A stretch of 64,000 nucleotides of DNA from Fibrobacter succinogenes (GTDB lineage Bacteria; Fibrobacterota; Fibrobacteria; Fibrobacterales; Fibrobacteraceae). The stretch is from NCBI GenBank assembly GCA_902762795.1, contig CACWPM010000007.1, positions 124,001 through 188,000 on the forward strand. Direction: 5' to 3'. A program made the translations under genes and the position numbers. Positions 21,577 to 61,998 of the stretch are shown one piece after another; the stretch's first letter is position 1, and every line of letters begins with the position of its first letter. The notes beneath the pieces are model-generated. The model saw only the letters and a list, made by a program, of their open reading frames with translations. It ran no database searches and was not told the origin of the DNA.

Positions 21577-22671
21577 TTACAGTTGTTTTTGTATTTCTTG
21601 CGCAAGTTCAACGCCCAAATTCTTGGCTTGTTGAACGCAATCCGCAGATTTCAAATCGACCGAACCGGAACATTCTACGCGAAGCAATTTTTCAGATTTT
21701 TCATCCCAGTAAATTCCGCGAATTTTCAAAGTCTGCGCAATTCGAATAGTACTATTTTTGCAAGCGCCGGATTCGTGCAGGGCGGAGTCACAAGCGCCGC
21801 GATTTCTAGCACCGTCATCACTAACAAATTCAGCAAAGCTTGCCACCGGGAATTGGCAACCAGCGTTGAGAGCCTTCAAATAAGCCATTTCGGCAGATGC
21901 AATGCAGAATGTCGCGACATCGTTCACGCGAGCGAGAATCTGCGCAAGGGTCGCAAGACCAGTGCAACGCGCTTCCTGAGGCGTTGCATCATTCAATGTT
22001 TCAACCGCCAAAATTCCCTGACCGCTGGCGGGGAGCATCTGTTCGGTGCTAAAGTATTCCGTCACCTGGTTAGCAAGGCCCATGCGCTTGAGGCCGGCCG
22101 CCGCAAGCACAACGCCATCGAGTTCCGCAAGTTTGCCAATACGCGTCTGGATGTTCCCGCGAATCGGCACATATTCCAAATCCGGACGGAGCGCTTTCAG
22201 CTGCACCACACGGCGAATGCTTCCCGTTCCGACGCGGGCACCAGCAGGCAAATCCATAAAGCGAACGCCAGCAGCTCCACCGCGCGCAAGGAATGCATCA
22301 CGCGGGTCTTCACGTTTCAAGACTGCAGCAAGCTTGAACTGCGGCAGCACTTCGGCAGGCATATCCTTCAAGCTGTGGATAGCAATATCCGCACGACCTT
22401 CAAGGAGCGCGATTTCCAATTCCTTGATGAACACGCCCTTGCCACCAAAACTCGCAAGCGACTTGTCCAAACGGCGGTCGCCTTCGGTTGTCATGGAAAC
22501 AAGTTCATACATCAGTGCATCGCGAACATTACAAGTATCGACGGCATTTTCAACAACAGAATTTGATGCGACAATCGCGTCTGCGGCCATTGTCGTCTGG
22601 GCCAGAGCCAAAGCGCTTTTACGGGTCGCGATACGTAGTGGGCGTTCTTTAGTAAAAAAAATATCAGCCAT
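21577..22671 (-). CDS. hemC: Hydroxymethylbilane synthase (porphobilinogen deaminase)
   Basis: Polymerises four porphobilinogens to hydroxymethylbilane. The start RPLRIATRKSALALAQT, the LKDMPAE active-site loop, GTGSIRRVVQLKALRPDLE and RGNIQTRIGKL are diagnostic. A late LNAGCQFPVASFAE holds the dipyrromethane-cofactor cysteine. 364 residues, somewhat longer than the ~310 typical, mainly in the C-terminal domain after the cofactor Cys (SDDGARNRGACDSALHES), which may be repeat-derived too. Overlaps hemA by 8 bp, so translation is probably coupled. Confidence 0.96.
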   Translation of the reverse strand: MADIFFTKERPLRIATRKSALALAQTTMAADAIVASNSVVENAVDTCNVRDALMYELVSMTTEGDRRLDKSLASFGGKGVFIKELEIALLEGRADIAIHSLKDMPAEVLPQFKLAAVLKREDPRDAFLARGGAAGVRFMDLPAGARVGTGSIRRVVQLKALRPDLEYVPIRGNIQTRIGKLAELDGVVLAAAGLKRMGLANQVTEYFSTEQMLPASGQGILAVETLNDATPQEARCTGLATLAQILARVNDVATFCIASAEMAYLKALNAGCQFPVASFAEFVSDDGARNRGACDSALHESGACKNSTIRIAQTLKIRGIYWDEKSEKLLRVECSGSVDLKSADCVQQAKNLGVELAQEIQKQL

Positions 22672-23938
22672 TACATGCTCCCAAGCACTTTAAAAAAACA
22701 TGAACATCTTCAGGCGAATTTTCAGCCTTGACTTTATACAAAAAATCATTGGCCATTTTCTTCGCAAAACGTTCATACATCATCTGGATGCGGTGGCGGT
22801 CATCTTCAGAAAGCTCCGGCATGGAACGCAACAATTTATCCGATTCTTCATTTGCCGTCGTGAGCATTTTTTCGGCATGCAAATGAATTTGCTTGGAAAC
22901 CTCGTCCATGCGGTTCCAATGCAAGAATTCATCAAGACCTTCTTTCAGAATTTTCTGTGCGGCATCAAGTTCAATCATGCGCAAGCGGCGATTTTCAGAA
23001 ACGATTTTTTCAAGGTCATCGACACAAACGTATTGTACACCGGAGAGTTCGCCAATAGAAGGTTCCGCATTGCGCGGGCTACCGAGATCGATAATCAAGC
23101 GCTTTGAAAGTGCCGTTGCAGAGGATTCCGCACCCTTATTGAAACAACGTTCATCCTGTGACAGAGCCTTGACAAATTCATCTTTCGTAACAATAGGTTC
23201 CTGGCAAGCGCTGCAGAGAATCACGACATCGCACTTGCCGAGGACATCGTAGCGGTCTTCAAACTTCACGGGTGTGAGCACGTCTGCAAATTTTTCGGCA
23301 TTGGCAAAGGTCTTGCTGCTTGCAAAAATCTTGGTCGTATTCTCTTGTACGTACTTGAGCATCAGTGATCCCATCTCGCCAAGCCCGACGATATACACGG
23401 TACGATTTTCAAGATCTTCAAAAGTCTTCTGTACCTGTTTCATCGCCAAAAACGGAATGTTGCAACTGAGCTTGCTCAAGTTCGTCTCGGTCTTGATGCG
23501 TTTAGTCGTGTGGATTGCACTCTGGAAAAGCTTGTTCAGAGTATTTTCCGTTGCATTCAAATGGTGAGCCGTTTCGTACGCACGACCAATCTGGTGCAAG
23601 ATTTGATCTTCGCCCATCGCAACAGAATCAAGCCCGGCACATACATTCATCACATGATGAGCGACATCATCACCCGACTTAAAATAAAAGAATTTCGAAA
23701 AACTATTGTAATCTTGACGGGCAAGTCCACACACATAGCGAACGAGTTCACCCTCCGTGATTTCACGATCACTCGCCACATAGACTTCCGTGCGGTTACA
23801 CGTTGCCAAAATTAAAAGTTCATCAAACGGGGAATGACTCAACGCATCCGTCTTTACATCCATCGGGATATAAAACTTTTCGCGAATTGCGATTTCAGCC
23901 ACCTTGTGGCTCATGCCGGCCATGTAAATATTGCGCAT
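22664..23938 (-). CDS. hemA: Glutamyl-tRNA reductase
   Basis: First step of the C5 pathway: reduces Glu-tRNA to glutamate-1-semialdehyde. The catalytic cysteine lies in LILATCNRTEVY (~42-53), GLDSVAMGEDQILHQIGRAY follows, and the NADPH domain has VYIVGLGEMGSLM. 424 residues, normal length. A Ser/Ala-rich stretch before KRLIIDLGSPRN (SQDERCFNKGAESSATALS) looks out of place and may be a decayed repeat insertion. It lies between ahbA-ahbB and hemC in the same direction. Confidence 0.96.
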   Translation of the reverse strand: MRNIYMAGMSHKVAEIAIREKFYIPMDVKTDALSHSPFDELLILATCNRTEVYVASDREITEGELVRYVCGLARQDYNSFSKFFYFKSGDDVAHHVMNVCAGLDSVAMGEDQILHQIGRAYETAHHLNATENTLNKLFQSAIHTTKRIKTETNLSKLSCNIPFLAMKQVQKTFEDLENRTVYIVGLGEMGSLMLKYVQENTTKIFASSKTFANAEKFADVLTPVKFEDRYDVLGKCDVVILCSACQEPIVTKDEFVKALSQDERCFNKGAESSATALSKRLIIDLGSPRNAEPSIGELSGVQYVCVDDLEKIVSENRRLRMIELDAAQKILKEGLDEFLHWNRMDEVSKQIHLHAEKMLTTANEESDKLLRSMPELSEDDRHRIQMMYERFAKKMANDFLYKVKAENSPEDVHVFLKCLGACNG

Positions 23939-23962
23939 AATCCAAAGATAGAAAAGATTGGA

Positions 23963-25114
23963 CTATGCAAAAAATCTAAAGCTCGTTTTCTTGAGTTCCT
24001 TGAGGGAATGGAGAACGACGTATTCCGGATTATCAAGCAAAGACACGGATTCCTTGATGTAACCGTATAATTCTTCGGGAGTCTGCGCATGAATCATTGC
24101 ATACAAGTTGTACGGAAAATTTTCAAAAAACGGACGCTCGTAACAGTGCGAAACAAAATGCTTTTTCGCTAGAGATTTAATTTTACTGGATTCTTCGTCC
24201 CTTCGGTCCTCAGAATGACGAGATTCCGCAAGCATTTCATTCAATTCACATTCGCCACTCGTCATTCGTTTTTCGTCTAATCTAAAACAAACCATCGCAT
24301 TGCAGGGGAAGCCGGCATCTTGATGACGGAGGATTGCTCCAAAGCGGCGCATACGTTTTGTAGCAAGGTCTTCGCGAAGTTCATCGCAAGAAACGTCCCA
24401 ATCCTTGAACGGAGTGAGCGTATGCGGGATGTCATCACAAGCAATGTGGATTCGATTTCGGTCAGAATCAGTTAATGCGTCCGCTGGAGATTGCCTCGCC
24501 AGCCTCCCACGCTGTCGCTCGGAGCAAGAGTCGCTCGCAATGACGTTACTAACCACTAGTGCGTCAGCACCCCCCATCACTGTATTGATTTTGTACTTCT
24601 TGGTAGCAGTAAGAATATGAACATCGTGCAATTCCGTTTGCAAACATACGCGGTCCACAACAGCCTGGATTGCAGATTCATTTTCGGCAATGACAGTAAA
24701 CCAAACATTGAATTCGTGACTGCGAATGTAATTGTGCGTAATTGCGGGCTCGACCATCACGACTGCCGCGAACTTTTCCATCGGCGTTACATCGTGCGGT
24801 TCCGCCGAAAAGTCAAGCGACGAAACCGGAACCTTCCCCGCACAAAGTCTCGAAATAAAGCCGAGTTTCTTGGAATCGTAGACGCCACCGATACGGCGAA
24901 TTACGCCAGAAGCTCGCATTTTCTCAACTTCATCAAAAATTTCTTGTTCTGAAATGGCTGAATTTGCAGCGCACTCGCTATCACAATTCAGCATTTCCGC
25001 AAGAGCCTTATACGGGCGTTCCACCAATGGAAAGCCGTCTTGAATAATCGCGAGAAGTTTTTGACTCAGCATTTGCGGCACATCGCGAGAGGCGTTACAG
25101 CCCGATTTCTTCAT
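23963..25114 (-). CDS. Fused siroheme decarboxylase (AhbA-AhbB)
   Basis: Siroheme decarboxylase removes two carboxyls to give 12,18-didecarboxysiroheme, the first dedicated step of the alternative heme pathway. Usually AhbA and AhbB are separate Lrp/AsnC-like proteins of ~150-170 residues; here both are in 383 residues. The first half has an HTH-like start (IIQDGFPLVERPYKALAE), then GVIRRIGGVYDSKKLGF. The second has MRRFGAILRHQDAGFPCNAMV and VSHCYERPFFENFPYNLYAMIH. Residues ~189-212 (VIASDSCSERQRGRLARQSP) and ~280-312 (EKRMTSGE, SRHSEDRRDEESS) are translated repeats. Overlaps the upstream radical SAM gene by 20 bp. Confidence 0.87.
   Translation of the reverse strand: MKKSGCNASRDVPQMLSQKLLAIIQDGFPLVERPYKALAEMLNCDSECAANSAISEQEIFDEVEKMRASGVIRRIGGVYDSKKLGFISRLCAGKVPVSSLDFSAEPHDVTPMEKFAAVVMVEPAITHNYIRSHEFNVWFTVIAENESAIQAVVDRVCLQTELHDVHILTATKKYKINTVMGGADALVVSNVIASDSCSERQRGRLARQSPADALTDSDRNRIHIACDDIPHTLTPFKDWDVSCDELREDLATKRMRRFGAILRHQDAGFPCNAMVCFRLDEKRMTSGECELNEMLAESRHSEDRRDEESSKIKSLAKKHFVSHCYERPFFENFPYNLYAMIHAQTPEELYGYIKESVSLLDNPEYVVLHSLKELKKTSFRFFA
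24195..24283. repeat. Family B and A fragments inside ahbA-ahbB
   Basis: GATTCTTCGTCCCTTCGGTCCTCAGAATGACGAGATTCC type repeat (arms CTTCG/ CAGAATGACG), then CTCGTCATTCGTTTTTCGTCTAA. In frame between two conserved strands of the AhbB-like half. Confidence 0.6.
24476..24543. repeat. Family C repeat at the AhbA/AhbB joint
   Basis: GGAGATTGCCTCGCCAGCC ... GAGTCGCTCGCAATGACG. Flank sequence matches intergenic copies near 21437 and 11229. It encodes the VIASDSCSERQRG linker. Confidence 0.65.
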
Positions 25115-26267
25115 CCGTCAAATAGCAAGCCGGATCTTCAGCCCAGAAGTCACCAGTAACGGCTTCGGCACGCGTACGGAAATTGCCGTTGCACAAATTC
25201 AAGTAAGCACACTTCGGACAACGCCCCTTCAAAAGCGGTTTGCGGTTCTTGAGGCCAGCCATAATCGGGTTCGATTCGTCCGTCCAAATGTCGCCAAAGT
25301 TGCGTTCGCGAACGTTACCAAGCGTGATATATTGCGTAAACTGATCCGGATGCACATTACCGATGCTATCGATATTGCCAAATGCCATACCACTGCGGTT
25401 ACCGCCATTACGCTTAATCAAATCCAAAATCTTTTCGGCGCGTTCCGGGTCTTCGCGCTTCATGCGCTGGTACAGATAAACGGCATCCGCATGGTTGTCG
25501 ACCGTCAAGATTTCCTTGTTCACGCCACGCTTCTTAAAGTCCAAAGTCCGATCAATGATGAGGTCCATCGCCTTGCGGCTTTCTTCATGATTCAAGTCAT
25601 TCTCGACCATCGCACTTCCACGACCGCTATACACCAAGTGATAGAAGCACACGCGATCAATGTTTTCGGCTTCGAGCAAATCAAAAATCGCATTCAGGTC
25701 CTGCACATTGTAACGCGTAATCGTAAAGCGGAGTCCAACCTTCTGGCCCGTCGCCACACAGTTACGGATCCCGCGCAAAGCCATCTGGTAAGCACCCTGC
25801 TTGCCACGGAACTTGTCATGAGTTTCTTCGCAACCATCCAAGCTGATGCCCACATAGCCCACGCCCATCGCCTTGAGCTTCTGCGCCACATCCGGCGTGA
25901 TGCAAGTGCCGTTCGTCGAAATCGTCGGACGGATGCCCTTGCTGGCCGCATAGTTCGCGAGTTCAAAAAAATCCGGGCGCAAGAGCGGCTCGCCACCGCT
26001 GAACAAAATCACCGGTACATGGAAATCTGCAAGCTGATCAATAAGCTTGATTCCCTCTTCGTGCGTAAGTTCGTTCTGGTACTTGATGGCCTCGGAACGC
26101 GCATAGCAATGCACGCATTTCAAGTTGCAAGTCTTGGTGCAGTTCCACACCACCACCGGACCACGGCCCGGGCCCACACCGTTCTTGGATTCGTGGGCAC
26201 GTGGTTCGTAACGAAGGGAATCCCCAAAGTTCGGGGAATCCATCAAAAGCTTAGTAATACTGATCAT
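25095..26267 (-). CDS. AhbC-like radical SAM heme-biosynthesis protein
   Basis: 390 residues. The radical SAM motif CNLKCVHC lies in PVVVWNCTKTCNLKCVHCYARSEA-like sequence at about residues 41-64, followed by FSGGEPLLRPDFFELA, and a Cys-rich C-terminal SPASM-type site (GRCPKCAYLNLCNGNFR ... DPACYL). This layout and its place next to ahbA-ahbB fit AhbC (12,18-didecarboxysiroheme deacetylase); related NirJ and AhbD proteins are alternatives. It would yield Fe-coproporphyrin III; AhbD for the final step is not in this window. First gene of the minus-strand operon. Confidence 0.82.
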   Translation of the reverse strand: MISITKLLMDSPNFGDSLRYEPRAHESKNGVGPGRGPVVVWNCTKTCNLKCVHCYARSEAIKYQNELTHEEGIKLIDQLADFHVPVILFSGGEPLLRPDFFELANYAASKGIRPTISTNGTCITPDVAQKLKAMGVGYVGISLDGCEETHDKFRGKQGAYQMALRGIRNCVATGQKVGLRFTITRYNVQDLNAIFDLLEAENIDRVCFYHLVYSGRGSAMVENDLNHEESRKAMDLIIDRTLDFKKRGVNKEILTVDNHADAVYLYQRMKREDPERAEKILDLIKRNGGNRSGMAFGNIDSIGNVHPDQFTQYITLGNVRERNFGDIWTDESNPIMAGLKNRKPLLKGRCPKCAYLNLCNGNFRTRAEAVTGDFWAEDPACYLTDEEIGL

Positions 26268-56871: not shown

Positions 56872-57624
56872 TTGAAAATCGAAAAGAAAAAAGCCGATAA
56901 TCGCACAAAATTCTCTTATGTTGCAAAGACAGCTATTGCAACGACTCTAGGAATATCTACATCGATATCATTCGTCGCTTGCGATGAAGACGTTTCGGTC
57001 AATCCTAAATCAGATGTTCAACCGGACACTACAACCCCCAAAAGTTCCGATAGCAACGAAGAATCGTCCAGCAGCAAGTACCTAGACATTCCGCAAAGCC
57101 ACGAAGCCATCAGCAGCGAAGTCCTCGAAGCACTTTCTTCGGCAGCTCATTCAGCAACATCAGCAGTCCAAGCCAAATCCAGCTCTGATGCACAAAAAAT
57201 TTCCTCCAGCGAACAGTCCCCGAGAAGCTCTTCAACTCAGCTAAATTCTTCAGCGGAACAACCGTCCTCCAGCACAACCGCCATCGAGACAAGTTCTTCA
57301 ACCGAAGTAACATCCTCGGCAGCGCAACCACGCTCCTCCAGCGAACAGCCGGCAAACAGTTCCGCATCCCAGCCCACATCATCAGAGCCTCAATCTTCGA
57401 GCAGCTCAGAAACCTCACCCGCCTCATCCGCAGCGCAACCAACAAGTTCTTCATACAATCCTTGGGGCATGGACTACCCCAATCCCTGCGTGGGCCTTCC
57501 TGCAGGAACCACCATAGAAACAGATTTTCAGGTCATCATTTGCCCCGATTCGTCAAACTCAAACTGGCCCTCTCATGGATTCAGCATGGTTACCACGTTC
57601 GAAAGGGATGACATCGAAGTTTAA
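56872..57624 (+). CDS. Lipoprotein-like precursor 1 of a radical SAM cassette
   Basis: 250 residues, starting at TTG 56872 with GAAGGAG 7 bases upstream. I chose this start because the other three precursors begin M(K/N)IEK(K/R)K and this one reads LKIEKKK at the same distance from the lipobox. Parts: basic N-region; hydrophobic stretch and FVAC (Cys 37); SHEAISSEVLEALSS motif (~77-90); long Ser/Gln/Pro linker; CVGLPAG ... IICPDS Cys pair; C-terminal SMVTTFERDDIEV. I infer that the tail is the modified core, exported and lipid-anchored. Precursor 2 begins 9 bp later. Confidence 0.82.
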   Translation: MKIEKKKADNRTKFSYVAKTAIATTLGISTSISFVACDEDVSVNPKSDVQPDTTTPKSSDSNEESSSSKYLDIPQSHEAISSEVLEALSSAAHSATSAVQAKSSSDAQKISSSEQSPRSSSTQLNSSAEQPSSSTTAIETSSSTEVTSSAAQPRSSSEQPANSSASQPTSSEPQSSSSSETSPASSAAQPTSSSYNPWGMDYPNPCVGLPAGTTIETDFQVIICPDSSNSNWPSHGFSMVTTFERDDIEV

Positions 57625-57633
57625 GGAATAAAA

Positions 57634-58386
57634 ATGAAAATCGAGAAAAGGAAAATTACAAATACAACGATAGTTTCCTTCGCCAAAAAGAGCGCTATTG
57701 CAGCCGTTCTCGGTATGGCGGCGGTATTTTCACTGAACGCCTGCGACGACAGTACCTCGGCATCTGACAACAACTCGAATCAGACGACGGGTCCGGAATC
57801 CAGCGATGCCACCGTCCCCACCAGCAGCACCGACGAAGCAACTCCCGCAAGCAGCGAAAATGCCTCCGCCGCATCAAACCAGGAGCAGCCTCCTGCCAGC
57901 TCTAGTCAGGAACAAGCGCCTGTCAGTTCAAGCCAAGAAAAAGCACCCGAGACATCTAGCCCGCAGCAATCTCCGGTAAGCAGTTCCAACGAGGTGGTTG
58001 TCGATATTCCCCTGAGCCACGAGTCTATCAGCAGTTCCGTCATGGAAGCGCTATCGGCTGCCGCTGAAGCAAGCTGTTCCTCTACTGCCCCTACCCCAGC
58101 CAGCGCAGCAGACACGACAACAAGTTCCTCGGCCGACACAACCAGTTCCGCAGCCGGTCCGGAGTCTTCAAGCGAAACCGTACAACCGGAATCTTCGAGC
58201 GAAGCCGTCAACCCAGCAAGTTCGTCCAGCCAACCCTCCATCTGGGATATCTACGACGCGTGCGAAGGGCTTCCTAGAGGCTCTTCCGTAAACATTGGCG
58301 GCAATGTGTACCTCTGCCCCGATGGCATCGGCGGAGGGATGGGCAGCATGGTCACCACCTTCGAACGCGACGACATCGAGGTATGA
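57634..58386 (+). CDS. Lipoprotein-like precursor 2 of a radical SAM cassette
   Basis: 250 residues. Same plan as precursor 1: MKIEKRK start, lipobox SLNAC (Cys 37), very long Ser/Ala/Gln-rich linker, DIPLSHESISSSVMEALS at 124-141, Cys pair CEGLPRG ... YLCPDG, and tail SMVTTFERDDIEV (238-250). The stop codon overlaps the ATG of the radical SAM gene (ATGA), strong evidence for coupled translation and a joint role. Confidence 0.85.
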   Translation: MKIEKRKITNTTIVSFAKKSAIAAVLGMAAVFSLNACDDSTSASDNNSNQTTGPESSDATVPTSSTDEATPASSENASAASNQEQPPASSSQEQAPVSSSQEKAPETSSPQQSPVSSSNEVVVDIPLSHESISSSVMEALSAAAEASCSSTAPTPASAADTTTSSSADTTSSAAGPESSSETVQPESSSEAVNPASSSSQPSIWDIYDACEGLPRGSSVNIGGNVYLCPDGIGGGMGSMVTTFERDDIEV

Positions 58387-59477
58387 ACCTGATTCTATGC
58401 CTTACGGAACAGTGCAACCTGCGCTGCTCCTACTGCTATTACAAAGACACGCAGGCCGCCCGACATGCAGTCATGGACAATGCGACCCTTGAGCAAGCCA
58501 TCCGCGTAGGCCTCGAACGAACGCACTCCTTCGGCCAAAACCTCCTGATTGTCTCTTTTTTCGGCGGGGAGCCGCTCCTGCGCAAAGACGCCATCTACCA
58601 CGCCGTAGGGTTTGCCAAGGCTCTTGTCGCCGAAGCCATTGACAAGGGAACCGTCGGCAAGGACTTCCATCTGGAATTCACGATAAACACGAACGGCACC
58701 CTTTTCGACGATGAATTTTTCGACTTCTGCGAAAGGGAGAAATTCACCCTATTCCTCTCGCTCGACGGTCCGGAACACCACCAGAACATCGCGCGCCGCA
58801 CAGTCGACAATACCGGCAGTTTCGGCGCAATCGTAAAGAACATCCCACGTTTCGTGAAACTCAATGCGACCGCCCTCAGCACGATAACACGCGCCCACAT
58901 CGATACGCTCGCCGAGAGCGCCAAGTGGCTACACGAACAGGGCTTCCGCAGCATGACGACCAGCGTGGATTTCGACGGGAAGTGGACCAGCGAAGACTTC
59001 GAAAGGCTCGCCCGGCAATACCGCGAAATGGCTCAATACTGGTTTGAATGCCGCAAGAACGGAGACAAATTCTATCTCGGGACTATTCAGGATAAAATAA
59101 AACTGATGCTATCCGGGCGACGCTTCCGCAACTATTCCTGCCACGTGTTTTCCGGAACCATCGGGATTGCGACAAACGGAAATATATTCCCCTGCTCACG
59201 CTTCATTACCTCCAATGAAAGCGCTCCCTACAAGCAGGGCAACGTCTTTACCGGGTTCGACGAGATTGCCTGTGCCGAGTTGCACGCTTTCCTCGAAAGC
59301 GACAAGCAGGAATGCGAAGGCTGCGACATCCGTTACCGCTGCTGCGCACACGAATGCGCCTGTACCTCTTTTTACACCACCGGACGCATCGAAAGCATAT
59401 CGCCCGAAGTCTGCACGCACGAAAGAATGCTCACAGAAATTTGCGATGATTGCGCCGCAAGAGCCATTAGCGGCTAG
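58383..59477 (+). CDS. Radical SAM/SPASM peptide-modifying enzyme 1
   Basis: 364 residues. The 4Fe-4S motif CNLRCSYC (Cys 11, 15, 18) stands at the very start, so there is no N-terminal recognition (RRE) domain. Then FFGGEPLLRKDA and a C-terminal SPASM region: NYSCHVFSGTIGIATNGNIFPC, then CEGCDIRYRCCAHECACTSF and PEVCTHE, enough Cys for two auxiliary clusters. Radical SAM/SPASM enzymes of this size commonly crosslink or otherwise modify ribosomal peptides. Its ATG overlaps the stop of precursor 2. The most likely substrate is the shared C-terminal tail of the precursors. Confidence 0.88.
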   Translation: MNLILCLTEQCNLRCSYCYYKDTQAARHAVMDNATLEQAIRVGLERTHSFGQNLLIVSFFGGEPLLRKDAIYHAVGFAKALVAEAIDKGTVGKDFHLEFTINTNGTLFDDEFFDFCEREKFTLFLSLDGPEHHQNIARRTVDNTGSFGAIVKNIPRFVKLNATALSTITRAHIDTLAESAKWLHEQGFRSMTTSVDFDGKWTSEDFERLARQYREMAQYWFECRKNGDKFYLGTIQDKIKLMLSGRRFRNYSCHVFSGTIGIATNGNIFPCSRFITSNESAPYKQGNVFTGFDEIACAELHAFLESDKQECEGCDIRYRCCAHECACTSFYTTGRIESISPEVCTHERMLTEICDDCAARAISG

Positions 59478-59650
59478 TTTCCGTTTTTATTCATCTATCT
59501 TTAAGTATTGATTTTGGGCTATGGTCAGTGACCATATGCAACGAATGCAACAAAAAATTAAAGCCGAAATCGCAAAAACAGCCCAAAATGGCATTGATGG
59601 CTCCAAAACAAACTATATTAGTATTTGTTGTTACGGATTAAGGAGGATTT

Positions 59651-60202
59651 ATGAACATCGAGAAGAAAAAGGTCGCAGGAAAAACGCCTCTGTCCAATGC
59701 GGCAAAAACAGGATTCGCCTCTTTATTGGGAATGACCTCCATTTTCATGACCGCATGTCTCGACGAATCCGAGAACAATAACGCTATGGGTCCGGCTGGC
59801 CCCAACAACAGCGATGATTCCACACCCCCCGAAGCATGGTCCAGCTCATCCATCGATATCCCACTGAGCCATGAACGCCTTAGCAGCGAAGCCATTGAAG
59901 CACTTTCTTCTTCGTCTGTACAAAAACCGAGCAGCTCGTCATTCATCCCGGGCAGTTCTTCAGGGGGGCACCATGCGTTTTCCAGTTCTTCAATACCTTC
60001 ACTAAAATCAGAAAGCAGTTCTTCGAGCGTCAAAGAAGAACCGAGCAGTTATCCAGACAGCATAATGCACCCGAGGATTGATCTGGAACGCAATTGCGAT
60101 ACAATAGATTCCATGGGCGTCAATGTCATCATGTGCCATGATTATATCGAAGTTCCGATGGTGAGCATGGTTTCTACATACAACATGTACGACATCACGT
60201 AA
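59651..60202 (+). CDS. Lipoprotein-like precursor 3 of a radical SAM cassette
   Basis: 183 residues, the shortest precursor. MNIEKKK start with a strong AGGAGG ribosome site, lipobox MTAC (Cys 36), DIPLSHERLSSEAIEALSS at 69-87, a short Ser linker, a Cys pair (RNCDTID ... IMCHDY), and tail SMVSTYNMYDIT (172-183). The tail keeps SMVxT-aromatic-xxx-DI but replaces the FERD core by YNMY. First gene of cassette 2, 173 bp after the first radical SAM gene; the gap has no obvious terminator. Confidence 0.8.
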   Translation: MNIEKKKVAGKTPLSNAAKTGFASLLGMTSIFMTACLDESENNNAMGPAGPNNSDDSTPPEAWSSSSIDIPLSHERLSSEAIEALSSSSVQKPSSSSFIPGSSSGGHHAFSSSSIPSLKSESSSSSVKEEPSSYPDSIMHPRIDLERNCDTIDSMGVNVIMCHDYIEVPMVSMVSTYNMYDIT

Positions 60203-60223
60203 TAAAAAAATGTAGGGAACAAT

Positions 60224-60916
60224 ATGAAAATTGAAAAGAAAAAAGTTGTCAAGAGCACATTAAGTTCTTTCACCAAAAGGACGGTTGCGGCCGCTCTCGG
60301 AATTTCAGCATCCATCGGTTTAGGAGCCTGTGAAGATATCACCGGATCAACAATCGAGAAACAAAAACCGCAAGAACCAGAACCTTTGTGCGGCATCCAA
60401 GAATGCGGCAACCAATTAAGCAGTTCCAGCTACACCGACATTTCTTCTAGCGGAGAACGCCTCAGCAGTTCTGCCATAGAAGCTCTTTCTTCTGCAATCA
60501 AGCCAAAAAGCAGCTCTTCATTTGTCCCTCCTCCCCAAGCAGGGATTCTCCCGCCATACGAAAACGATTATCCAAGAGAGCACAAATCTTCGTCAAGTGA
60601 AGTTCCACTGAGCAGTTCATCCGAAGTGTCCGAACCGCTAGCCGGCGATCCAATTTTCACCGCAAGCAGTTCGAGCGAAAGTACGCCAAGCACAAAATCT
60701 AGCAACAGCAACGTCGAAATAAAAATTATAGAAATTGATCCAGATAGCTTAAAACAGGAAAAAAAGGACACAATTATTGATATCGATCCTAAAAAACCGT
60801 TCTGCGAAGATTCTAGCAGCGACCCAAGATGTCGAGTCAATATCTGCAAAGATTCTGACGGTTGCATGATATTCAGCATGGTGACCACGTTCGAACGAGA
60901 CGACATCCAAGCATGA
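60224..60916 (+). CDS. Lipoprotein-like precursor 4 of a radical SAM cassette
   Basis: 230 residues. MKIEKKK start, lipobox GLGAC (Cys 36), SGERLSSSAIEALSS at ~76-90, a Ser/Pro/acidic linker with KIIEIDPDSLKQEKKDTIID, a Cys-rich stretch (FCEDSSSDPRCRVNICKDSDGC) and tail SMVTTFERDDIQA (218-230). The stop overlaps the ATG of the second radical SAM gene (ATGA), copying the precursor 2 arrangement. Confidence 0.85.
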   Translation: MKIEKKKVVKSTLSSFTKRTVAAALGISASIGLGACEDITGSTIEKQKPQEPEPLCGIQECGNQLSSSSYTDISSSGERLSSSAIEALSSAIKPKSSSSFVPPPQAGILPPYENDYPREHKSSSSEVPLSSSSEVSEPLAGDPIFTASSSSESTPSTKSSNSNVEIKIIEIDPDSLKQEKKDTIIDIDPKKPFCEDSSSDPRCRVNICKDSDGCMIFSMVTTFERDDIQA

Positions 60917-61998
60917 ATTTAGTCCTTTGCCTTACAGAACGATGCAATCTACGTTGTTCTTACTGCTATTACAAAGAATCACAGGCCGACCGCAAAACGG
61001 TCATGGACGACGAGACCCTCGAACAAGCCATTCGCATTGCGCTTGAACGCACGATTTTCTTTAAGCAGATATACTTGAACATCACATTTTTTGGGGGCGA
61101 GCCGCTTTTGCGAAGAGATGCCATTTATAAAGGTGTCGCATTCGCAAAGGCGGTTATCGATGACGCTATAGACAACGGCAGAATTCCAAACAATTTCAAA
61201 TTGAATTTCGCAGTCAACACGAACGGCACGCTGTTCGATGATGAATTTTTCGATTTTTGCGAAAAAGAACATTTCCGCATTTATCTTTCACTTGACGGCC
61301 CCCAATACCATCACGATATCGCACGACGCACAGTGAATAACACGGGGAGTTTCAAAGCGATAGAAAAGAACATCCCGAGATTTGCAAAGTACGGAGCCGT
61401 TGCATTAAGTACCGTAACAAGAGCGCATGTCCAGACGCTTTTCGAAAGCGTCAAGTGGCTGCATGAACAAGGTTTCCAGAGTCTCACCACAAGCGTTGAT
61501 TTTGACGGTAAATGGAGCGGCGAAGAATTTGAAAAACTTGCCATTCAATACAAAAAAATGGCCCAGTACTGGAAAGAATGCCGTGAAAAAGGCGATAAAT
61601 TTTTTCTAGGCACAATTCATGATAAAATAAAAATAGCACTAACAAATTCTCGATACAGACTTTATTCGTGCCACGTGTATAATGGGGCAATCGGAGTTGC
61701 TACTAACGGAAATATGTTCCCCTGCACACGATTCATAACATCAAACCCAGACACCCTTTATGTGCAGGGGAACGTTTTCACAGGCTTCGATGAAAAAGCC
61801 TGCGAAGAAATTCGCGAGTTTCTCGATAACGACAAGAAGGAATGCGAAGGCTGCGACATCCGCTATCGTTGCTGCGCACATGAATGCGCCTGCACCAGTT
61901 TTTACACGACAGGAAGCATCGAAGGCGTTTCGCCTGAAGTCTGCACGCACGAAAGAATGCTCACAGAAATTTGCGATGAATTAATCAATAGTCATTAG
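60913..61998 (+). CDS. Radical SAM/SPASM peptide-modifying enzyme 2
   Basis: 361 residues from ATG 60913. Alike to enzyme 1 along the whole length: CNLRCSYC at the start, FFGGEPLLRRDA, LYSCHVYNGAIGVATNGNMFPC, CEGCDIRYRCCAHECACTSF. A longer frame from 60862 is rejected because it would read through the end of precursor 4 and add residues absent from enzyme 1. It carries more AT-rich codons than enzyme 1, so the duplication is not recent. Confidence 0.88.
   Translation: MNLVLCLTERCNLRCSYCYYKESQADRKTVMDDETLEQAIRIALERTIFFKQIYLNITFFGGEPLLRRDAIYKGVAFAKAVIDDAIDNGRIPNNFKLNFAVNTNGTLFDDEFFDFCEKEHFRIYLSLDGPQYHHDIARRTVNNTGSFKAIEKNIPRFAKYGAVALSTVTRAHVQTLFESVKWLHEQGFQSLTTSVDFDGKWSGEEFEKLAIQYKKMAQYWKECREKGDKFFLGTIHDKIKIALTNSRYRLYSCHVYNGAIGVATNGNMFPCTRFITSNPDTLYVQGNVFTGFDEKACEEIREFLDNDKKECEGCDIRYRCCAHECACTSFYTTGSIEGVSPEVCTHERMLTEICDELINSH

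Follow-up and report, generated by a model that had tools for sequence, protein, structure and literature searches.

Hybrids between lipoproteins and ribosomally synthesized and post-translationally modified peptides (RiPPs) were described in a 2025 preprint as DAG-RiPPs, in which a multinuclear non-heme iron-dependent oxidative (MNIO) enzyme modifies a C-terminal motif of the precursor in the cytoplasm before lipidation through a signal peptidase II (SPII) signal (PMC12636315). The C-terminal motif is recognized without a leader, the precursors were mined in a range of 50–160 amino acid residues, and the text mentions neither radical S-adenosylmethionine (SAM) enzymes nor Fibrobacter (PMC12636315). 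For the one Fibrobacteres genome that it covered, a 2014 survey of RiPPs in anaerobes listed none of its RiPP classes (PMC4289311). In this study, a stretch of 64,000 nucleotides from Fibrobacter succinogenes (assembly GCA_902762795.1, contig CACWPM010000007.1, positions 124,001–188,000 of the forward strand), hereafter the window, was analyzed. Its positions 56872–61998 contain two cassettes in tandem, each with two genes for Ser-rich SPII lipoproteins and one gene for a radical SAM/SPASM enzyme. This system may work like a radical SAM RiPP system with a lipoprotein precursor, a type of hybrid already shown for MNIO enzymes. No paper linking Fibrobacter to such a system was found in the open-licence literature.

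Similar to the DAG-RiPP precursors, the window-type precursors have an SPII signal and a lipobox, both called by motif only. Different from the DAG-RiPPs, however, a radical SAM enzyme is the only linked enzyme and no MNIO enzyme accompanies it, the precursors are longer and their N-termini are conserved. Among radical SAM enzymes, the best NCBIfam match of the window enzymes was PapB (NF047865), which is also a SPASM radical SAM peptide maturase. The matches covered nearly the whole profile, but their scores of 206.2 and 207.5 bits were under the cut-off of 340. The window enzymes also differ from PapB in that they lack a RiPP recognition element (RRE), and their precursors are lipoproteins without consistent CX3D/E sites. 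On the scores and the sites, membership in the PapB/CX3D group was rejected. The closest solved structure by both sequence and fold was the SCIFF maturase CteB (PDB 5wgg/5why, TIGR03974). The window precursors, however, are not of the SCIFF type, no domain precedes the barrel of the window enzymes, whose match begins at residue 99 of CteB, and the TIGR03974 score was about 122 bits against a cut-off of 425, which does not place them in the SCIFF group. A further fold match (E 3e-16) was ChlB (PDB 9gm3/9gmc), a radical SAM enzyme of the SPASM type whose structure includes the leader region of its precursor. ChlB is 18% identical and has a different precursor. To our knowledge, ChlB has no link to lipoproteins.

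The TIGR04133/TIGR04134 pair follows the same idea, a radical SAM gene beside lipoproteins with Ser-rich linkers, and the earlier note on this DNA had mentioned such a family from Bacteroidetes. It proved to be a different system that is present elsewhere in the same genome (3.93 Mb, 89 contigs). The window enzymes scored 29.2 and 22.4 bits with TIGR04133 (cut-off 425), so their membership was rejected, and no TIGR04134 lipoprotein exceeded its cut-off in the genome or at the locus. Two true TIGR04133 enzymes were found in this genome (L167, C12:73500-81500, and L168, C1:3500-11500; L numbers are our locus numbers), each adjoined by several lipoproteins that start with MYKHWKK or MNIRKH, many of them Ser-rich or Cys-rich. 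Different from the window lipoproteins, the TIGR04133-linked ones have short signal peptides (MYKHWKK..C) with the Cys near position 20 and no SM..T tail. Judged from these sequences, radical SAM/lipoprotein systems of two unrelated kinds exist in the genome.

All six genes that the earlier note had described, with the overlaps between them, were found at the locus. Its features are as follows.

56872..57624, + strand: lipoprotein precursor 1, 250 amino acids, TTG start with AAGGAG ahead of it, lipobox VAC37
57085..57141, + strand: central motif of precursor 1, DIPQSHEAISSEVLEALSS
57583..57621, + strand: C-terminal tail of precursor 1, SMVTTFERDDIEV
57634..58386, + strand: lipoprotein precursor 2, 250 amino acids, lipobox LNAC37
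58003..58059, + strand: central motif of precursor 2, DIPLSHESISSSVMEALSA
58345..58383, + strand: C-terminal tail of precursor 2, SMVTTFERDDIEV
58383..59477, + strand: radical SAM/SPASM enzyme 1, 364 amino acids, CNLRCSYC, ATGA overlap with precursor 2, no RRE domain
59651..60202, + strand: lipoprotein precursor 3, 183 amino acids, AAGGAGG ahead of the gene, lipobox TAC36
59855..59911, + strand: central motif of precursor 3, DIPLSHERLSSEAIEALSS
60164-60199, + strand: tail of precursor 3, SMVSTYNMYDIT, which deviates from the other three tails
60224..60916, + strand: lipoprotein precursor 4, 230 amino acids, lipobox GAC36
60437..60493, + strand: central motif of precursor 4, DISSSGERLSSSAIEALSS
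60875-60913, + strand: tail of precursor 4, SMVTTFERDDIQA
60913..61998, + strand: radical SAM/SPASM enzyme 2, 361 amino acids, ATGA overlap with precursor 4

In both cassettes, an ATGA overlap joins the stop codon of the preceding lipoprotein gene to the start codon of the enzyme gene, and the enzyme gene is probably translationally coupled to its substrate-like lipoprotein gene or genes. The four lipoproteins share an (M/L)(K/N)IEK start, a lipobox Cys at position 36 or 37, a central DI(P/S)xSxExxSSxxxEALS motif and a C-terminal tail. The tail reads SMVTTFERDDI(E/Q)(V/A) in three of the four, and that of precursor 3 deviates. Searched with up to 3 mismatches, the DNA pattern coding for the tail matched three times in the 3.93 Mb genome, each time at this locus, and a reversed control had no match. 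Matches to promoters and terminators were no more numerous than in shuffled sequences. The cassettes do form a tandem of paralogues, but a recent tandem duplication was rejected: because enzymes 1 and 2 are 70–71% identical and belong to different subclades of the family tree, each with its own support, the cassettes are old paralogues. The same enzyme/lipoprotein tandem is carried by another locus (L008).

The window enzymes exceeded the cut-off of the radical SAM domain PF04055 and fell just under that of SPASM (PF13186, 21.4 and 14.7 bits versus 21.5). After PapB, the next NCBIfam models were nif11, QhpD, SCIFF and sulfatase maturase, all far below cut-off. On profile scores, the enzymes are thus an unnamed family without an NCBIfam model at cut-off, which agrees with the expectation that they would not match a well-known maturase. 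In an AlphaFold model (pLDDT 90, pTM 0.89), the first barrel strand is at residues 2–6. Because the model starts at this strand, an N-terminal RRE is absent, and no Pfam domain was found ahead of the barrel. The best PDB folds for the model were CteB (5wgg, E 1e-23), the sulfatase maturase anSME and ChlB (9gm3). With membership defined by E ≤ 1e-50, the family was present in 64 of the 168 genomes of the phylum that were searched, all of them Fibrobacteraceae: 60 of the genus, including the window's own, and 4 of three sister genera. None of the 168 genomes had it outside Fibrobacteraceae. The enzyme tree contains the clades A, which holds both window enzymes, B, C, C' and D. Among 40 enzymes from all clades, the cysteines of the CX3CX2C motif (C11, C15 and C18) and those of the SPASM region for auxiliary clusters (C253, C271, C311, C314, C320, C325, C327 and C344) were invariant.

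Pairing was counted for 80 distinct enzyme copies, followed by a hold-out of 15 new enzyme sequences fetched later. A lipoprotein gene ended within 60 nt upstream of the enzyme gene in 61 of the 80 copies and at 81 nt in one more (62 in total). The 18 copies of clade D had no such upstream lipoprotein; in all 18, a small Lys/Arg-rich open reading frame (ORF) of 72–168 codons began 14–38 nt downstream of the enzyme gene. The predicted partner was also present for all 15 hold-out copies (9 lipoproteins and 6 downstream ORFs). Together, 71/71 copies from the lipoprotein-type clades had a lipoprotein with a common type of start directly upstream and 24/24 clade D copies had the downstream ORF, such that a candidate precursor adjoined the enzyme in 95 of 95 distinct copies. 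In the scanned genomes, all lipoproteins with an M(K/N)IEK-type start lay beside these enzymes, with the exception of one candidate orphan near a contig end (genome G019, L125); the other MKIEK-type matches were for the most part unrelated or very short ORFs. These results support a link between lipoprotein and enzyme far beyond chance. Enzymes regularly found without such precursors had been named in advance as a sign against the pairing; the lipoprotein-type clades gave no such case, whereas clade D has its Lys/Arg-rich ORFs instead.

The ORFs downstream of the clade D enzymes (L029, L031, L033, L050, L080, L133, L134, L135, L137, L141, L143-L150, L181, L182, L186-L188) encode 72–172 amino acid residues and start 11–38 nt past the enzyme gene. 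Their products have no signal peptide, and GG motifs, for example SPIGGKTPVGVDV and GGMPAEKALF, are frequent in them. By position, they look like a separate class of candidate substrates. Neither the lipoproteins nor the scanned clade D partners matched any NCBIfam or Pfam model over cut-off. At one of these loci (L141:1-2400, minus strand), a second radical SAM gene, whose product has an RRE-like N-terminus, was also found beside the clade D copy; the precursor upstream of this gene has CK..WCKFSDPEHIK repeats with CX3D sites, and this is likely a ranthipeptide system.

An enzyme that acts on another target, with the lipoproteins simply in the same operon, would also be compatible with a pairing read from sequences and with clade D enzymes that have no lipoproteins. 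We regard it as very improbable: the adjacency in 95/95 copies spans several deep clades and differing genomic contexts, the downstream neighbors are not common to the loci, the genes overlap, and the N-termini of the precursors covary with the enzymes. The correlation of enzyme distances with precursor distances was highest for the N-terminus (r = 0.85), followed by the last 14 residues, i.e., the tail (0.73), and the middle (0.61), and none of 500 permutations matched any of these correlations. The start itself was M(K/N)IEK at positions 1–5 in all 69 distinct type-A precursors, followed by K/R at position 6, mostly V/I at position 8 and variable residues 9–14. I3, E4 and K5 were invariant in all 74 type-A and type-B precursors. 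Because these three residues are invariant while residues 9–14 vary, the start appears to be conserved beyond the plain needs of a signal peptide. Being both conserved and covarying with the enzyme, M(K/N)IEK is a candidate leader or recognition sequence. The lipobox Cys was at position 36 or 37 in 66/69 type-A precursors, in forms such as LNAC, LSAC and LTAC, and Asp or Glu, a possible sorting signal, followed within 4 residues of the lipid Cys, also in 66/69.

The C-terminus of all 69 type-A precursors was SM(V/I/A)(T/S/I)T(F/Y/L)(E/D/N)xx(D/E) plus 1–4 residues, while the linkers drifted freely, as had been proposed from the four window precursors. S, M and T(+4) were present in 69/69, D(+9) in 68/69 and E(+6) in 66/69. 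The precursors of clade B end with SM(P/A)(T/S)(P/S/T)(V/I)GH(I/V) and a few residues. In clade A cassettes that resemble the second one of the window, an SMVSTYEM.D-type tail is usual for the distal precursor and an SMVTTFEQDD-type tail for the proximal one (L016, L018, L020, L021, L053, L055, L169, L174-L177), and this constant order suggests a two-component product. For precursor 2, AlphaFold predicted a largely disordered chain with a low-confidence stalk and tail and a small confident helix-hairpin near residues 200–230.

Position +5 of the type-A tail was aromatic in 67/69, and ChlB, whose fold is similar, is termed a multiple cyclophane synthase in a title within the reference list of PMC12636437. 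Both would fit a three-residue, 3-CyFE-like cyclophane formed within the tail tripeptide F/Y-E-x. However, two type-A tails have Leu at +5, the five type-B tails have no aromatic residue at the corresponding place, and such a tail is absent from clade C, so an aromatic-x-x target is not shared by all substrates. In addition, the window enzymes scored far below the cut-offs of the cyclophane models GrrM, FxsB, XyeB and YhhB. This chemistry is thus unlikely.

A Cys precedes SM in every type-A tail, and PapB and CteB, as the best NCBIfam and PDB matches, would be in line with ranthipeptide- or sactipeptide-type thioethers in a C-terminal Cys module. The sub-cut-off PapB score argues against this chemistry, as does the small share of precursors whose last 60 residues contain any C-x3-(D/E) (28/69 in A, 2/5 in B, 0/24 in C and 0/18 in D). 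Moreover, the number of Cys in the last 60 residues was even in all type-A (2, 4 or 6; 69/69) and type-B (0 or 2; 5/5) precursors, as expected of disulfides, and most C and many D partners offer no Cys whatsoever. Thioether formation is accordingly improbable, and Cys is an unlikely general target.

Given this pattern of evidence, we infer that the precursors are modified and favor the reading that each cassette is a minimal two-part system that modifies the tail of an exported lipoprotein and has its leader in the signal peptide, to which we give an even chance. The enzyme would dock on the M(K/N)IEK(K/R)x(V/I) start, where an over-long n-region of the signal peptide would double as a RiPP-type leader. 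Before export, radical chemistry would alter the disordered C-terminal 12–13-mer SMV(T/S)T(F/Y)ExxD; by analogy with the nearest characterized relatives, an intramolecular cross-link is the most likely result. Sec would then export the modified protein, Cys36/37 would receive the lipid, and cleavage by signal peptidase II would discard the leader together with the signal peptide. If the leader is lost in this way, the system can do without a protease or transporter of its own. This agrees with the downstream neighbors, which differ between loci and include no conserved protease or transporter. At the cell envelope, a Ser-rich stalk that ends in the modified tip would present the product. In clades C and D, the enzymes may do the same kind of job on lipoproteins with (A/S)G(D/E/I/V)(P/I/V) repeats or on the downstream Lys/Arg-rich small proteins. 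It is possible, but doubtful, that the extended n-region is the RiPP leader of an RRE-free radical SAM/SPASM family with an undescribed surface-tip modification, whose substrates switched within one bacterial family between upstream exported lipoproteins and downstream Lys/Arg-rich cytosolic proteins.

Over 119 precursor pairs, the ratio of nonsynonymous to synonymous substitution rates (dN/dS) was 0.06 in the central motif, 0.18 in both the signal and the tail, 0.30 in the linkers and 0.45 in the 30 residues ahead of the tail. Gaps were 16 per 100 codons in the linker versus 0–0.4 in the conserved blocks (signal, central motif and tail), and were also common in the 30 residues ahead of the tail. 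The conservation of signal and tail relative to the linkers speaks for the two-part reading, but several results weigh against it. The strongest constraint was on the central motif, not on the tail. Because the SMxTT-type tail is limited to clades A and B and is missing from the C and C' lipoproteins, the common substrate feature of the family may lie elsewhere; the tail as the modified core, as first proposed, can hold only for A and B. The clade D partners lack a signal peptide and mostly a clear M-x-I-x-K start. Moreover, the related genomes share history, so that conservation and permutation tests overstate independence, and some loci had already been seen when the patterns used to find partners were drawn up, a bias that the hold-out lessens and does not remove.

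These points bear on another explanation, in which the target of the enzyme is the Ser/Thr-rich stalk or the central DIPxSHExxSSxxxEALSS motif, modified for instance by Ser oxidation as in anSME or by epimerization, and the tail, conserved for a function of its own, is a tip that binds a receptor or partner. Besides the low dN/dS of the central motif, anSME is among the best structural matches, and Ser-rich stalks occur in all lipoprotein clades. However, the central motif is absent from clades B and C, Ser-rich linkers are unspecific and also occur in unrelated lipoproteins of this genome, and the sulfatase maturase model TIGR03942 gave 93–95 bits, far under its cut-off of 349. This explanation is rather unlikely. 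The clade C lipoproteins, which have no SM-type tail, contain a repeated (A/G/S)G(D/E/I/V/M/L)(P/I/V) motif in 24/24 proteins (96 observed versus 8 in shuffles). As a universal modification site, (A/G/S)G(D/I/V/M/E/L)(P/I/V) was rejected, since no more than 26/69 of A contain it and D shows hardly any enrichment.

Two further observations concern other systems. In two Fibrobacter genomes (L097 and L100), very short ORFs MNIEKKQKKDYAAPEMIEVELV... end with CGEECGPYN or CGEDCGPFG and look like precursors of other peptide systems. In the window, positions 21577–26267 on the minus strand encode hydroxymethylbilane synthase, glutamyl-tRNA reductase, a fused siroheme decarboxylase similar to AhbA/AhbB and a NirJ1-type radical SAM protein, which is probably a siroheme-dependent route of heme synthesis.

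The results from this study add an enzyme–substrate family that is unnamed in current collections, with no NCBIfam model at cut-off for its enzymes and no family for its substrates. As a minimal system of two genes, it is easily testable. It is found in most genomes of Fibrobacter, a major fiber degrader of the herbivore gut. If the favored reading of tail modification is true, the family would make RiPP-lipoprotein hybrids by radical SAM chemistry, from precursors whose signal peptide incorporates the leader. Peptide chemistry would then be linked directly to what the cell displays on its surface, in an organism for which the attachment to cellulose is poorly understood, and the product may function in contact signaling, as a toxin or as an adhesion tip.

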